Positions 3,086-35,148 of a stretch of DNA of 64,000 bases are shown here, piece after piece. The stretch is from the NCBI RefSeq assembly GCF_023897015.1, contig NZ_JAMHFY010000007.1, positions 124,001 through 188,000 of the forward strand, written 5' to 3'. Every line of letters begins with the position of its first letter. Position 1 is the first letter of the stretch. This DNA is from Desulfosporosinus nitroreducens. GTDB taxonomy: Bacteria > Bacillota > Desulfitobacteriia > Desulfitobacteriales > Desulfitobacteriaceae. The notes under the pieces are model-generated. The model made no database searches and was not told where the DNA came from. It was given only the letters and a program-made list of their open reading frames with translations. The translations under genes were made by a program, and so were the position numbers.

Positions 3086-4312
3086 CTATATGTCTAGCTC
3101 AAACTTCTTGTGCAACGCTTGTACTGCAGTCACCATGTCCCCCTGATGAACCAGCACCCAAATTGTTGTATGTGAATCAGCCGATTGCAGGATAGTCACA
3201 CCAGCGTCCGAGAGTGCTTCGACCATATCTGCCATAACACCTGGGACGCCTGCAATTCCAGCCCCAACTATGGATACCTTTGCACAACTAGGTAAAACCT
3301 CTGGTTCAAAGTCCATATCCCGTAACATTTGGATTGCTTTTGTGGCAACCTCATCTGAAACAGTATATAACACTGCTTCTGGTTGCACACTTATAAAATC
3401 TACACTTATATCAGCAAGTGCCATTGCTTTAAAAATCCGCTTATCTGTAAGATGTATGTTTGAAGCATCTGCGGTTAATATCCGAAGTTGAGTGACATTA
3501 GGTGTATGGGCGATTCCTGCAATGATGCGGTCAGTGGTGATATCCGTTCCGACTTCCCGATTGGGATGCATATTGGTTACCAATGTCCCTGGGGCTTTAG
3601 AAAAAGTTGATTTTATCCTCAGCGGAATATTTCGTTGCATCGCGATTTCCACGGCGCGTGGATGAATAACTTTTGCTCCTTGATAAGCCATCTGACATAT
3701 TTCGTTATAAGTAACAATATCTAAAATACGAGCATTTTCAACGATTCTAGGATCAGCAGTCATGATCCCTTCAACATCTGTATAGATATCGATAAATTCA
3801 GCAGCAAGGGCAACCCCAAGTGCTGAAGCCGTAGTATCACTTCCTCCTCGACCAAGAGTTGTAACCTGACCACCTTCTGTAACTCCTTGAAATCCGGTCA
3901 CAACTACAACGTATCCTTCTGCCAATTGCTTTAGTATCTCAGCCGGCTCCACTCGAACAATCCGGGCATCCCCAAAATCATTATTAGTAATGATTCCTGC
4001 CTGCCCTCCTGTCAAGAGGACCGCTCTCAACCCCAGGCTATTTAAAGTGCTTACCAAGACAGTCCCTGAAATGACTTCTCCACAACTCATCAATAAATCT
4101 AACTCGCGTTTGGGTAAATCAGGATGTATTCCTTTAACCATATTCAGAAACGTATCCGTTGCATAGGGGTCCCCGGATCGTCCAATAGCCGATACCACGA
4201 CAACTGGAGAATACCCATCCTGAACTGCTTCTGAAACTATAGAAGCCACCTGAGTCCTTCGCTCTTCTGTAGCTAGGGAGGTACCGCCAAATTTCTGTAC
4301 TAGGATATTCAA
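3086..4312 (-). CDS. dapG: Aspartate kinase, monofunctional
   Basis: This enzyme phosphorylates aspartate, the first step of the aspartate-family pathway. The kinase signature KFGGTS is at residues 7-12 and two ACT-type regulatory domains occupy the last 150 residues. The 408-residue size and the place between asd and dapA match B. subtilis dapG, the isozyme that serves diaminopimelate/dipicolinate synthesis and is feedback-regulated by diaminopimelate there; regulation here is inferred. The start is TTG with a gggggatagg site. The upstream spacer carries a TTCG-rich hairpin. Confidence 0.95.
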   Translation of the reverse strand: MNILVQKFGGTSLATEERRTQVASIVSEAVQDGYSPVVVVSAIGRSGDPYATDTFLNMVKGIHPDLPKRELDLLMSCGEVISGTVLVSTLNSLGLRAVLLTGGQAGIITNNDFGDARIVRVEPAEILKQLAEGYVVVVTGFQGVTEGGQVTTLGRGGSDTTASALGVALAAEFIDIYTDVEGIMTADPRIVENARILDIVTYNEICQMAYQGAKVIHPRAVEIAMQRNIPLRIKSTFSKAPGTLVTNMHPNREVGTDITTDRIIAGIAHTPNVTQLRILTADASNIHLTDKRIFKAMALADISVDFISVQPEAVLYTVSDEVATKAIQMLRDMDFEPEVLPSCAKVSIVGAGIAGVPGVMADMVEALSDAGVTILQSADSHTTIWVLVHQGDMVTAVQALHKKFELDI

Positions 4313-4330
4313 TTCCTATCCCCCCTTCTC

Positions 4331-4362
4331 GTGGTTCGATGTTCGTGGTTCAAACCGCGAAC
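4331..4362. repeat. TTCG-rich hairpin repeat (family B)
   Basis: The sequence gttcgtggttc / aaaccgcgaac forms a near-perfect stem immediately upstream of dapG. Related TTCG words occur at 9225-9342, 37484-37510, 41473-41650, 44048-44085 and weakly at 52753-52786, always between genes. Confidence 0.65.
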
Positions 4363-4424
4363 TCCAAATTATATCTTTAACCAATAGAACTTTAGACCAC
4401 TAAATCTCCAACTGCAATCCTCGA

Positions 4425-5414
4425 TTAAAGTAATAGCTCTGCGATTTGAACAGCGTTTGTGGCCGCACCTTTGCGAATTTGATCTCCTACCACCCACATG
4501 TTAAATCCCTGATCGATGGAGTAGTCTTTACGCAAACGTCCAACATAGACTTCATCTTTGTCAGAGCTAAACCATGGCATTGGATAGTGATCCTTACTAG
4601 GGTCGTCTATTACTACGATACCAGGAGCTTTGCTTAAGGCCTCCCGAATTTCTGAAACACTCACCAGTCTGTCTGTTTCAACATTAATAGATTCTGAGTG
4701 ACTCCGAAAAACAGGTACGCGAACTGTTGTCGCGGTAATGGCCATACTAGGTACGCGGAAAATTTTCTGGGTTTCTTTAACCATCTTCCACTCTTCTTTG
4801 GTATAGTCGCCCTCTTGAAATACATCAATGCGCGGAACAAGGTTAAAGGCAATCTGATGAGGGAAAACACTGGAAATAAGTTCTTCCCCTTGAGACCAAG
4901 CTTTCACCTGTGCACCTAATTCTTCAATACCTTCTCGCCCGGCACCTGAAACGGCTTGATAAGTAGATACTACCACGCGACGGATTCCAGCTAAATCATA
5001 AATAGGCTTAAGGGCAACTGCCATAATAATCGTCGAACAATTAGGATTGGCAATTATTCCCTTATGCCATTTTACATCTTCCGGATTAACTTCTGGTACT
5101 ACAAGCGGCACTTCCGGGTCAAGTCTAAAAGCACTGCTGTTATCAATGACCACAGCCCCACTGTCAACCGCAGATCGGGCATATTCCGTACTTGCTGATC
5201 CACCTGCAAAGAGCGCAATATCTATCCCCTTAAAACTCTCGTGGGTTGTCTCCTGAACCTCTAGTTCTTGACCCTGCCATGCAATACGTTTACCAGCAGA
5301 ACGCTTTGATGCTAATAACCTCAGTTCATCAACTGGAAACTTCCGCTCGGCAAGAATTTTAAGGAACTCTTGTCCTACTGCACCTGTGGCTCCAACAATT
5401 GCTACATTTGACAT
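4425..5414 (-). CDS. asd: Aspartate-semialdehyde dehydrogenase
   Basis: Asd reduces aspartyl phosphate to the semialdehyde with NADPH. The nucleotide loop GATGAVGQEF is at residues 8-17, the catalytic cysteine is Cys126 in ANPNCSTI, and the YQAVSGAG and RSHSESIN blocks follow. The 329-residue length is normal. An aaggagg site precedes the ATG. It sits between dpaB and dapG, as in B. subtilis. Confidence 0.97.
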   Translation of the reverse strand: MSNVAIVGATGAVGQEFLKILAERKFPVDELRLLASKRSAGKRIAWQGQELEVQETTHESFKGIDIALFAGGSASTEYARSAVDSGAVVIDNSSAFRLDPEVPLVVPEVNPEDVKWHKGIIANPNCSTIIMAVALKPIYDLAGIRRVVVSTYQAVSGAGREGIEELGAQVKAWSQGEELISSVFPHQIAFNLVPRIDVFQEGDYTKEEWKMVKETQKIFRVPSMAITATTVRVPVFRSHSESINVETDRLVSVSEIREALSKAPGIVVIDDPSKDHYPMPWFSSDKDEVYVGRLRKDYSIDQGFNMWVVGDQIRKGAATNAVQIAELLL

Positions 5415-31301: not shown

Positions 31302-32681
31302 TTACTTTTTGATGGTTGGAATAGGTTCTGTTGAGATGGCATCCAAATTGTCTTCCCAAAGATACTTTCTCGTTTCTGCTACGATAACTCCACTTAAGAG
31401 AAGCAGAGAGATAAGGTTCGGAATGGCCATCAGTGCATTCATAGCATCCGCCATATCCCAAACAAGTTGAAGAGTCATTATGGAGCCAAAGAATACGGCA
31501 AGCACCCAGACTACACGGTACGGAATAATTGCTATTTTTCCAAATAAGTACTCAATAGCTCTCTCCCCATAATAAGACCAACCTAAAATGGTTGAAAATA
31601 CGAAGGTTAAAAGTCCAAAAGTTAGAACAATCGGACCAACTACAGGGATTTGAGCAAAGGCCATTTTTGTTAAAGCGGCACCTTTTAACCCTTCCGCTGC
31701 CGCTGGGTTGCTCAATATACTGCTCACTACGACGATACCGGTCATTGCGCAAACTACCACAGTATCCCAGAAGGTTCCGCTGGCAGAGACTAGGGCCTGA
31801 CGAACAGGGTTTCTGGTTTGAGCTGCCGCTGCCACGATTGGCGCAGATCCCAATCCCGACTCGTTGGAGAATAAACCGCGTGCGATACCATAACGAGCTG
31901 CCATCATGATAGACGCCCCAATGAAGCCACCGCCAGCCGCCTGAGGGGTAAAGGCAGATTCAAAGATTAAGGATATAGCAGGTAATACGTAAGAAGAATT
32001 CAAAACTAAGATAGCGATGCATCCAAGAACGTAGAAAATTGCCATGAACGGTACAAGTTTCTCACACACTCGAGCAATGGATTTCACTCCACCGATAATA
32101 ACAACACCCGTGAGAGCGGCCATAATGAAACCCGTGATATAATGAGGGATGTTAAAGGTCTCATTTACCATTGAAGAAATCGAATTGGCTTGAACAGTGT
32201 TACCAATACCAAAAGCGGCAATCGCAGTAAAGATACAGAATAACACAGCTAACCACTTTTGTCCTAAACCGTTCTCCAGTGCATACATTGGACCTCCGAG
32301 CATTGTACCATTGGAGGTCTTAACCCGATATTTTACGGACAATAAAGCCTCAGAGTACTTTGTTGAGATGCCGAATACTCCCGTTAGCCAGCACCAAAGC
32401 ACTGCACCAGGACCGCCCAGGGCAATAGCCGTAGATACTCCAACGATGTTACCTGTACCAATGGTAGCCGCTAACGCAGTAGTGAGGGCACCAAATTGAC
32501 TTACATCCCCTTCAGCAGTTGGGTCCTTAGTTACAGAAAGTTTGATGGCTTTGAAAATGTGCCTTTGGATAAATCGGGTACGAAAGGTTAGGAATAAGTG
32601 CGTACCAAAAAGCAGAACCAGCATCGGGGGGCCCCAGAGATAATCGTTCAACCAGATAATAGCGTTGTGAAATGATTGCAT
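31302..32681 (-). CDS. Sodium:alanine/glycine symporter (AGCS family)
   Basis: A 459-residue membrane protein of the AGCS family with about ten to eleven hydrophobic helices. Family motifs include GPGAVLWCWLTGVFGISTKYSEALL near residue 90, GGPMYALENGLGQKWLA near 130 and NESGLGSAPIVAAAAQTRNPVRQ near 270. It imports alanine or glycine with sodium. A tandem glycine riboswitch precedes it (32852-33012), so glycine is the likely controlling ligand. The gene stands alone. Confidence 0.94.
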   Translation of the reverse strand: MQSFHNAIIWLNDYLWGPPMLVLLFGTHLFLTFRTRFIQRHIFKAIKLSVTKDPTAEGDVSQFGALTTALAATIGTGNIVGVSTAIALGGPGAVLWCWLTGVFGISTKYSEALLSVKYRVKTSNGTMLGGPMYALENGLGQKWLAVLFCIFTAIAAFGIGNTVQANSISSMVNETFNIPHYITGFIMAALTGVVIIGGVKSIARVCEKLVPFMAIFYVLGCIAILVLNSSYVLPAISLIFESAFTPQAAGGGFIGASIMMAARYGIARGLFSNESGLGSAPIVAAAAQTRNPVRQALVSASGTFWDTVVVCAMTGIVVVSSILSNPAAAEGLKGAALTKMAFAQIPVVGPIVLTFGLLTFVFSTILGWSYYGERAIEYLFGKIAIIPYRVVWVLAVFFGSIMTLQLVWDMADAMNALMAIPNLISLLLLSGVIVAETRKYLWEDNLDAISTEPIPTIKK

Positions 32682-32748: not shown

Positions 32749-32777
32749 AAAAGAGCCAAATCTTAGCGATTTGACTC
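32749..32777 (-). terminator. Riboswitch expression-platform terminator
   Basis: On the minus strand agagtcaaatc pairs with gatttggctct and ctttttatata follows. It lies between the glycine aptamers and the symporter, about 70 bases before the start codon, so it is likely the switching element (aptamer bound means read-through, as in other glycine ON switches). Confidence 0.75.
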
Positions 32778-32851
32778 TGGATATTATTAGCATTATTAGT
32801 CTATTTTAGAAGTCACCTGAAAATGCGTCTTTTAAAAATAAACATAAAAAA

Positions 32852-33012
32852 TACTCTGTCCTTTTGCCTGAGAGATTAGCAAAGCGTCATTGCGTTGCCC
32901 CTTCGGCGCCCATCATTTGGGTCTCTCCAGAGTCCTGTCAATTTACGGTCCTGCTTGAATTCAAGCTCCTGAAAGTACAACCTCTTCGGCAGGCTACTTG
33001 CCACTCTCCCGC
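32852..33012 (-). ncRNA. Tandem glycine riboswitch
   Basis: On the minus strand two aptamers are visible in tandem. The first begins gggagagtgg, has gccgaagagg, and ends with gcaggaccg...gacagg. The second begins ctggagagaccc, has gcgccgaaggggcaac, then ctctcaggcaaaaggacaga, which is the classical gcvT-type core. The spacing between the two is short, as in cooperative tandem switches. It controls the AGCS symporter 170 bases downstream. Confidence 0.9.
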
Positions 33013-33048
33013 AAATATCATCCAGCAATATTCAATTTATCAATTCCG

Positions 33049-33078
33049 AGACTCCCACTTCTTCAAGTGGGTGTTCCT
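33049..33078. repeat. Hairpin repeat, family C, copy 1
   Basis: The sequence gagactcccacttc...aagtgggtgttcc forms a 7-bp stem. It is closely related to 33376-33405 (gagacacctgcttc...aagtaggtgtctc), and the two flank the palindrome block and the promoter. Both are outside coding DNA. Confidence 0.65.
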
Positions 33079-33084
33079 TATTCT

Positions 33085-33218
33085 ACTTCGGTGACGATAG
33101 TCTCCAGTGGAGAGTATCGCCAAGCGCCTTTCCCAATAGGAATACTTGGCGCGAAGTATTTGTATGTGGATCTGCGCCTTCGGCGTAAGTCTCCACTGGA
33201 GACTTACGTCACCGAAGT
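33085..33218. repeat. Nested palindrome block in the riboswitch leader
   Basis: A 12-base outer inverted repeat (acttcggtgacg / cgtcaccgaagt) encloses several inner palindromes: gatagtctccagtggagagtatc, cgccaag...cttggcg, gcgccttcggcg and the perfect gtaagtctccactggagacttac. It lies between the candidate promoter and the glycine aptamers, so it should be transcribed as a multi-stem structure. It looks like an inserted repeat element. A further small palindrome (gttcagctttagctgaac) follows. Confidence 0.75.
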
Positions 33219-33264
33219 CTCGATGTTCAGCTTTAGCTGAACGAGTTCACTGGAGTTAATTAAC

Positions 33265-33293
33265 ATTATAGTTTTATATATAACTTTATACAA
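33265..33293 (-). promoter_or_regulatory. Candidate promoter of the riboswitch-symporter transcript
   Basis: On the minus strand TTGTAT and a perfect TATAAT are spaced by 17 bases. Transcription would start about 245 bases before the first glycine aptamer, through the palindrome block. Confidence 0.65.
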
Positions 33294-33375
33294 GATAAAT
33301 TTAAAAGACAAAGATTCTAACGACGCAAATTTGAGTGTTCCAGTTCATATCTCACCCCAAGATTAATCAACGTTC

Positions 33376-33405
33376 GAGACACCTGCTTCTGTAAGTAGGT
33401 GTCTC
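33376..33405. repeat. Hairpin repeat, family C, copy 2
   Basis: The 13-bp stem gagacacctgctt / aagtaggtgtctc (one mismatch) starts about 10 bases after the proS stop on the minus strand. It may end proS transcripts, but there is no U-run on that strand. It resembles copy 1 at 33049-33078. Confidence 0.65.
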
Positions 33406-33414
33406 CCTGTTTTG

Positions 33415-35148
33415 TTAATACAGTAAAGCTTTCTCCACAATTGCCTTCACCTTTTGAGTGAGGTCTTCTACTTTCACCAAATGTGTCTCACCAGATTTAC
33501 GCTCTCTGAGTTCAACCTGACCATTGGCCAAGGTTTTGCTTCCTAAGGTCACCCTTATCGGATATCCAACCAAATCTGCGTCTTTAAATTTCACACCAGC
33601 ACGTTCATCTCGGTCATCGAGAACAACTTCCACTCCAAGACCCTTGAGCTCTTGATAAAGTTTAGCAGCTGTCTCAACGACTAAGGTGTCTTTGGTACTC
33701 GCTGGTACAATGATACATTGGTAAGGAGCAATCGGCATGGGCCAGATAATTCCAAAGTCATCATGATTTTGTTCGATGGAAGCAGCAATCGTTCTGCTTA
33801 CCCCAACTCCGTAACAACCCATCACACAACTTTTCTCCACACCGTTTTCATCTAAAAAGTTTGCTCCTAATGCTTTGCTATACTTGGTTCCCAGTTTGAA
33901 AACTTGGCCTACTTCGATTCCTCTGGCCTCTTTAAGTGGAGCACCGCATCTAAGACAAGCTTCACCCGGCTCAACCATTCGTAAATCAAGCACCTGATCT
34001 ATACGGAAATCTTGACTGGGGACAACATCCACATAGTGATTATCCGCCTTATTCGCTCCGCACACAACCTTTTTCATGAGGGGAACCTCTTCGTCCGCAA
34101 TGACCATAAGCCCATCAGGCACTCCAACAGGGCCTACAGAACCTGGCTCACAACCCAAAATCTTCTCAACTGACTCGGGTGAGGCGAGTTGAAGGGATAC
34201 AAACCCGCCTAAGGCATTATTTACTTTTATTTCATTTAGTGTACGGTCCCCGCGTATCAACACTAAAAACGTCTTCTCATCCCCTTGATAAAGCAACGAC
34301 TTAACTAAGGTGCTCTTCGGTACAGCTAAAAACTTACTGATGTCCTCAATGGTCTTGACTCCCGGTGTTGGCACTAACTTCCGCTGTCCTTCAGGAGATG
34401 CATCCTCGATAATTTGGGGACGGCACTCGGATTTTTCCGTATTGGCGGCATAATCACACCCTGAACAATACACCACCGAATTTTCCCCTGAATCAGCCAA
34501 TACCATGAACTCATGTGATCCACCGGTCCCTCCAATAGCACCTGGGTCCGCTTCGACCGGACGATAGGTTAAACCGCAACGGGAATATATTCGGCAATAA
34601 GCATCGTACATTTTTTGATAACTCTCATGAAGGCCTGCTTCATCACGATCAAACGAATAGAGGTCTTTCATGATGAATTCACGGCCGCGCATTAATCCGA
34701 AGCGAGGGCGTCGCTCATCGCGATATTTGTTTTGAATTTGATAAAGGAGCATTGGCAGTTGCTTATAAGATCGGATTTCACCCCGAACAAGGTCTGTGAT
34801 AATTTCTTCGTGAGTCGGTCCAAGACAAAACTCACGATTGTGACGATCTTTTAGACGAAACAACTCTGCGCCATATACATCCCAGCGTCCGCTCTCTTTC
34901 CATAATTCAGCTGGTTGCATAATTGGCATAAGGACTTCTTGTCCCCCTTTGGCATCCATTTCTTCTCTTATAATAGTTTCAATCTTTCTCAATACTCTTA
35001 ACCCCAAAGGCAAATAGGTGTAAAATCCAGACGCAGACTTGCGAATTAAACCTGCCCTGACCATCAGTTGATGGCTGATGACTTCAGCTTCAGCTGGAAC
35101 CTCGCGGAGTGTAGGATTTAATAGTTGGCTGACGAGCATGTTGTCCAT
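33415..35148 (-). CDS. proS: Prolyl-tRNA synthetase
   Basis: Class II enzyme charging tRNA-Pro. The bacterial-type architecture is seen: motif 1/2 region ([17 protein letters not shown] near residue 41; [17 protein letters not shown] and [22 protein letters not shown] near 135-170), an inserted editing domain around 220-390, and the C-terminal anticodon-binding domain ([13 protein letters not shown] near 470). Length 577 is normal. The ATG at 35148 or that three codons later are both possible starts. No T-box is seen in the 135-base spacer before it; ispG is the upstream neighbour. Confidence 0.97.

Follow-up and report, generated by a model that had tools for sequence, protein, structure and literature searches.

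A probable PATE-like, non-autonomous transposable element in the glycine riboswitch leader of Desulfosporosinus nitroreducens

Introduction

The palindrome-associated transposable elements (PATEs), relatives of IS200/IS605, lack terminal inverted repeats (ITRs) in Haloquadratum walsbyi, in the sections of their description drawn on here; they carry palindromes near their ends, leave the target unduplicated and are too small to encode a transposase (PMC3119063). IS200/IS605 elements go in on the 3' side of a tetra- or pentanucleotide, likewise without duplication, according to the available part of PMC7290912, and mobility of the IS200/IS605 type relies, in the excerpts of PMC8266576 and PMC6006769 used here, on a guide sequence that lies 5' to the foot of the hairpin and pairs with the cleavage site. 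REP sequences are short single palindromes whose foot bears a tag of the GTAG/CGTC type, their size being given as 20-40 bp in the portion of PMC3733652 consulted and as 21-65 nt in that of PMC6006769.

The window analysed here is a 64,000-nucleotide stretch of Desulfosporosinus nitroreducens (GCF_023897015.1, contig NZ_JAMHFY010000007.1, positions 124,001 to 188,000), in which a block of nested palindromes lies in the leader of the amino acid carrier gene agcS, between a promoter-like site and a glycine riboswitch. We conclude, with a probability of about 0.8, that positions 33041-33250 hold a copy of a PATE-like transposable element that is non-autonomous and of the single-strand type. No earlier description of this family in Desulfosporosinus or its relatives was found in the accessible portions of the published open-access literature searched.

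Results

The orthologous locus of D. lacus lacks the insert and presents an empty site, TTTAT/TGGAG (the slash marks the junction), that is exact to the base and has no target duplication. It reads ...CAATATTCAGTTTAT / TGGAGTTAATTAACATTATAG, and the window reads ...CAATATTCAATTTAT, then the element (CAATTCCGAGAC...GAGTTCAC), then TGGAGTTAATTAAC...; deleting 33041-33250 recreates the D. lacus empty site save for one upstream substitution, and shifting the boundary by a single base fails to do so. A sequence-only reading of the window had proposed a miniature inserted element between the promoter and the glycine aptamers and had suggested comparing the riboswitch locus of close relatives, and the empty site of D. 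lacus bears this proposal out. The target-site duplications that it also suggested looking for are absent, here and at the aligned junctions described below. An element also occupies this site in a second relative (G018), with a different core. Because the informative sites at the locus are mixed (46 shared by D. lacus and G018, 27 by D. nitroreducens and D. lacus, 7 by D. nitroreducens and G018), two histories that may apply, precise loss in D. lacus or two independent insertions, are both compatible with them and are not told apart.

Table 1. Features of the element and of the surrounding agcS-proS region; positions are those of the window.
Feature	Position	Strand	Evidence
agcS, amino acid carrier protein	31302-32681	-	NCBIfam TIGR00835, 481 bits
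Hairpin resembling a terminator in the agcS leader, probably the expression platform (putative role)	32752-32778	-	Sequence scan
Glycine riboswitch aptamer (Rfam RF00504)	32846-32940	-	Rfam match
Second glycine aptamer	about 32941-33020	-	Read by eye
Pentanucleotide TTTAT, the target, on the 5' side of the insertion; T at 33251 follows the element	33036-33040	+	Flanks, empty sites
Complete mobile element CAATTCCGAGAC...GAGTTCAC	33041-33250 (210 bp)	+	Exact D. lacus empty site; other copies in own genome
Left-end (LE) subterminal hairpin GAGACTCCCACTTCTTCAAGTGGGTGTTCC	33048-33077	+	Covariation of this hairpin in 21 short copies
Core of nested palindromes; outer arms perfect over 12 nt, arms of 37 nt with 86% complementarity	33085-33218	+	Sequence
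Right-end (RE) hairpin GTTCAGCTTTAGCTGAAC, with hardly any variation between genera	33225-33242	+	Sequence, covariation alignment
Octamer GAGTTCAC at the right end, presumably where the right-hand cut falls	33243-33250	+	Boundary from empty site; putative cleavage role
Native agcS promoter-like site	33265-33293	-	Sequence; present at empty site
LE-like hairpin at proS 3' end	33376-33405		Sequence; also in D. lacus locus
proS, proline--tRNA ligase	33415-35148	-	NCBIfam NF006625, 812 bits

The core of the element corresponds to a 134-base block with 12-base outer arms and inner palindromes that the sequence-only reading had picked out, and a check of the sequence confirmed it: the arms ACTTCGGTGACG (33085-33096) and CGTCACCGAAGT (33207-33218) are perfectly complementary, and a further perfect pair lies inside (33184-33195/33197-33208). 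The whole element folds to -105.9 kcal/mol, whereas 200 dinucleotide-shuffled sequences give -56.4 +/- 4.5 kcal/mol and at best -69.7 kcal/mol (z -11.1), so that the block is not a product of chance. The start of the window copy agrees with its reverse-complemented end at 4 of 20 bases, that is, terminal inverted repeats are absent. With 33040-33300 as query, the first 117 bases are 97% identical to a copy on contig C25 of the same genome, and a right-hand stretch of 59 bp is identical to a copy on contig C22.

The same search of the D. nitroreducens genome (5.46 Mb, 95 contigs) returned 126 matches, which were merged by eye into 40 places, the window included, with many partial copies among them; further copies in the genome, another of the suggested checks, are therefore plentiful. 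Matches were present in 36 of 60 genomes of a sample of relatives (D. nitroreducens included), and the short form described below, searched as a 104-nt consensus, matched 39 of 82 genomes of the class at E <= 1e-6, mostly with at least about 10 matches per genome; one genome gave as many as 353 loose candidates at first look. Among the matches listed (80 of at least 110 stretches), the exact 29-nt right end occurs in Desulfosporosinus, Acididesulfobacillus, Desulfotruncus, Tepidibacillus, a Dethiobacter MAG and others. It is absent from the viral contigs searched, and the window element had zero blastn matches in plasmid and phage records. Near-whole matches to the window element lie at G018:C35:25235-25443 (L013; 81% identity) and, in the D. 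nitroreducens genome, at G000:C33:202882-203100 (75%).

From 195 right-end hits across the collected loci, a search span of up to 420 bp yielded 115 distinct copies with both ends: 77 from the exact right-end search (among the matches listed), 17 from the D. nitroreducens genome and 21 others. They measure 68-306 bp, with 61 at 100-119 bp and 23 at 170-189 bp, and are too short to code for a transposase. The short form (100-119 bp) consists of three hairpins: LE, middle and RE. In 21 distinct copies of 108-116 bp, chosen from 60 of that size to have mutual alignment scores below 93%, 95.0% of the cells in the three helices pair and nine pairs show changes on both sides; pairing was as high in 0 of 500 shuffles, a contrast that related sequences can inflate, and slid controls reached 36.8-49.1%. 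The covariation comes mostly from two of the hairpins, LE and middle, and the one at RE scarcely varies (one pair with a double change). Longer copies carry extra hairpins within the middle hairpin, and added or tandem hairpins take the core to about 300 bp. At one locus of the D. nitroreducens genome (L049, G000:C44:86800-91200), the cores at 606-771 and 3318-3755 have expanded into arrays of 52/53-bp and 15-bp hairpin units, the larger array holding 6.4 copies of the 53-bp unit and 6.5 of the 15-bp unit; tandem duplication of hairpin units is thus one route by which the nested palindromes grow.

Insertion without duplication is repeated elsewhere. The joined flanks (70 + 70 bp) of 21 copies of the D. 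nitroreducens genome, a set that leaves aside eight further right ends with no recognisable left end, were searched in D. lacus and G018 and gave 14 junction-crossing matches on 10 insertions, all of which were aligned; the other 11 of the 21 sites gave none. Clean empty sites appeared in 11 of the 14 alignments (nine insertions), where clean tolerates substitutions in the target, small indels farther out and, for L053, a left end placed one C earlier, and a duplication appeared in 0 of 14. One alignment (L342) is ambiguous because its left flank has diverged. The remaining two concern one insertion (L050), at which both relatives, D. lacus and G018 (loci L318 and L319), carry four extra bases that could be an old excision scar or could reflect a deletion in the filled site. 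These bases, at an otherwise empty junction, are TCAC-like in D. lacus.

The target is equally regular. A T stands at +1, just after the element, in 111 of the 115 copies, and TTNAT precedes the element in 93 of 106 copies re-registered on AT, a count in which the search pattern favoured AT and favoured neither the TT at -5/-4 nor the T at +1. Insertion is 3' of TTNAT and before T. An open frame of at least 80 codons runs across the junction, within 450 bp on each side, in only two of the 21 joined-flank copies (L026 and L029), and the copies therefore look mostly extragenic. The left flanks had looked rich in terminators by eye, and a preference for transcription terminators was rejected on control sites: a strong hairpin (<= -8 kcal/mol) precedes 12.2% of the 115 insertions versus 10.6% of 3000 controls taken from 6802 TTNAT/T sites.

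At the agcS locus, the sequence-only reading had called the site at 33265-33293 a good promoter and had placed it inside the inserted element, with two related hairpins, one on either side, as the edges. The promoter is plausible, with a perfect TATAAT -10 (33265-33270) and a 17-nt spacer, but not strong, as its -35, TTGTAT (33288-33293), matches TTGACA at 3/6 positions and a promoter scan did not list the site; the relatives read retain its ATTATA stretch. The two hairpins (33048-33077 and 33376-33405) are indeed alike, with 7 of 30 positions differing from the LE consensus, and about 0.0005 such matches would be expected in the window with uniform independent bases, a model that overstates significance for hairpins. 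Only the first belongs to the insert, however, which ends at 33250, before the promoter. The second hairpin, the promoter and the aptamers are all present in the insert-free D. lacus locus, so neither that hairpin nor the promoter is part of the insert or its edge; the hairpin is perhaps a relic of an old solo LE.

Transcription is predicted to start at about 33258, seven bases past the -10, and the insert lies between this point and the first aptamer. Its RE is the end closer to the promoter, and the transcript would therefore carry the complement of the + strand used in this description. Given this position, only a few bases after the start, the insert would become an extra leader of about 210 nt, probably transcribed as a self-folding 5' structure ahead of the riboswitch. 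In a fold model, bases of the aptamer region pair with the upstream part at a mean probability of 0.003 with the insert and 0.054 without it, which fits a self-contained passenger; probabilities of pairing inside the aptamer region nevertheless correlate at only 0.83 between the two forms of the leader, and the minimum-free-energy folds differ there, which speaks against assuming that the switch is unaffected. Regulation co-opted by the window copy is conceivable. The insertion junction also forms a promoter-like match, TTGATA-18-GATATT (33014-33043, - strand, 9/12), which is at chance level (2 found in the scan, 1.6 expected).

The position between promoter and aptamers, together with the very stable fold, would also suit a dedicated structured RNA domain of the glycine riboswitch leader. 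Among 27 proS loci scanned, eight bear the riboswitch signature, and an element is present in two of these (D. nitroreducens and G018) and missing from six. The genome has whole or partial copies at 40 places, and G018 has a different core at the very same site. What the sequence-only reading had named as refuting an inserted element, the lack of any other copy together with conservation in distant relatives, is thus not what is seen, and the dedicated domain is refuted, with next to no probability left to it. A reading of the element as an IscB/HEARO guide RNA was set aside too, its best Rfam match having an E of only 0.81. The only significant match in an Rfam search of seven copy-bearing loci was a separate HEARO RNA (131 bits) in a Desulfosporosinus MAG (L154), where positions 3468-5354 hold this RNA followed by a gene that we take to be IscB-like and by a tnpA-like gene, about 2.2 kb from a copy of the element.

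A transposase sharing the ends of the element was sought in several ways. The D. nitroreducens genome has three Y1 matches, namely two IS605 copies with other ends and one RAYT-like protein of 258 aa. Motif scans found no LE/RE pair around a transposase gene in 83 Y1 loci, which represent part of the matches listed, include some places twice and are in several cases cut by contig ends, nor around a gene in 20 loci from a TnpB search, four of them below the family cut-off. A tblastn search with the TnpA, RAYT and TnpB proteins of D. nitroreducens matched two of the listed right-end loci, neither with these ends around the gene. The collected loci hold one LE...RE span of 330-5000 bp (L125, 1686 bp), which is of doubtful kind, its left part looking like an oppositely oriented copy.

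Two sets of insertion sequences were considered as partner and ruled out. A complete IS605 (tnpA and tnpB) starts 12 bp past the right end of one copy in the D. nitroreducens genome (L022, G000:C25:42200-45500; 1216 to about 2940), and it has different ends of its own. In another genome (L249) an IS605-type end lies 4 bp past an element right end; a preference for the flank of the element, or chance, is a possible explanation of this proximity. The IS200-type elements of G014, G016, G018 and others, with apparent targets TTTAA/TTTAT and several hairpins at the 3' end, differ in both LE and RE. Apparent targets TTTAA/TTTAT, with long 3' arrays of different short hairpins, are seen at the IS200-type tnpA loci L280, L285, L203, L205 and L224.

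Across the 82 genomes, 35 have both the element and a Y1_Tnp match, four the element only, 17 Y1 only and 26 neither (one-sided Fisher p 1.7e-6, uncorrected for kinship and completeness); within the genus, with at least eight matches taken as presence, the corresponding numbers are 21, 1, 3 and 4 (p 0.0067, likewise uncorrected for kinship and completeness). A Y1 transposase is the putative partner of the element. One element-rich genome (G022, 85% complete) has no Y1 match, and the same is true of a Tepidibacillus genome (L107) with a right end and a decayed left end.

A non-Y1 enzyme that leaves the target unduplicated, such as a rolling-circle Y2, IS110-type or other recombinase, could move the element in place of a Y1 protein. 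The Tepidibacillus copy would suit this explanation, as would the failure to find a Y1 partner with the same ends among the loci examined; the fixed 5' pentanucleotide and the hairpins just inside both ends fit IS200/IS605, the element associates with Y1, and a non-Y1 enzyme is accordingly considered very unlikely.

It is less improbable, although still unlikely, that the copies are REP/BIME-like repeats and owe their mobility to Y1 proteins of the domesticated kind (RAYT, TnpA-REP), not to an IS200-type TnpA. Five element-rich genomes (G002, G006, G007, G008 and G011) have RAYT-like Y1 matches only (open frames of 185-322 aa), a 210-aa RAYT-like match is found in G038 among the matches listed (1 of 2), and the RAYT-like protein of D. 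nitroreducens points the same way. The copies, on the other hand, have two unlike ends and the lengths given above, and are not single short palindromes; the copies read carry neither GTAG nor CGTC at the feet of their hairpins, and LE and RE are absent at the RAYT-type loci examined.

Discussion

Insertion without duplication, a 5' pentanucleotide, unlike ends with subterminal hairpins and the lack of inverted repeats point, by analogy, to transposition of the IS200/IS605 or PATE type for the element. An HUH (Y1) transposase supplied in trans would bind single-stranded DNA at the hairpins of LE and RE and would cut after TTNAT at the left and after GAGTTCAC at the right, and the element, excised as a circle, would then be pasted behind another TTNAT. 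At agcS, such an insertion just past the predicted start would have added a self-paired leader, as a passenger that spares the promoter, aptamer and terminator sequences.

A bolder extension, which we regard as unlikely, is that the family represents an orphan class of single-strand elements that outlived or never had an insertion sequence of their own, are moved in trans by any host Y1 protein, RAYTs included, make new core palindromes by tandem duplication and seed structured leaders and trailers across sulfate-reducing and related Firmicutes.

The family accounts for a striking class of repeats in these bacteria, and its exact boundaries and target open the way to annotating it and to assaying its transposition. 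The agcS leader also amounts to a natural experiment, in which about 210 nt of hairpin separate promoter from aptamer in one species but not in a close relative. The persistence of a family for which no matching transposase is seen becomes a question in its own right.

Compared with IS200/IS605 elements, as covered by the available part of PMC7290912, the element shares insertion 3' of a short fixed sequence, the lack of duplication and hairpins inside both ends, but it has neither tnpA nor tnpB. The two IS605 copies of the D. nitroreducens genome differ from it in their ends and, from comparison of the copies, in their apparent targets, TTAC and TTAAC. With REP sequences and their RAYT/TnpA-REP proteins, in the sections of PMC8266576 and PMC6006769 used, it has in common high-copy palindromic repeats, here mostly extragenic, in Y1-bearing genomes; set against the REPs of those sections and of the corresponding part of PMC3733652, it is longer, has two unlike hairpin ends, lacks the GTAG tag and was not seen around the RAYT genes examined. 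The addition of palindromic DNA within a palindromic element recalls the SMR-A elements inserted in PATE palindromes, as covered by the excerpts of PMC3119063, although core growth here includes tandem 15- and 53-bp units.

The closest likeness is to the PATEs themselves, with which the element shares, on the portions of PMC3119063 available, the absence of ITRs, palindromes near both ends, an unduplicated target, small size and strain-specific insertions. PATE palindromes match IS605-type elements of the same genome, a match that was not found for the Desulfosporosinus element among the loci examined, and, unlike PATEs as described in those portions, the latter has a bacterial host and a central hairpin that elaborates into nested and tandem hairpins. 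The unusual points of the family are its expandable palindromic core and the lack of a matching transposase among the loci examined; in its overall design, the element is a new family of a known, PATE-like kind.
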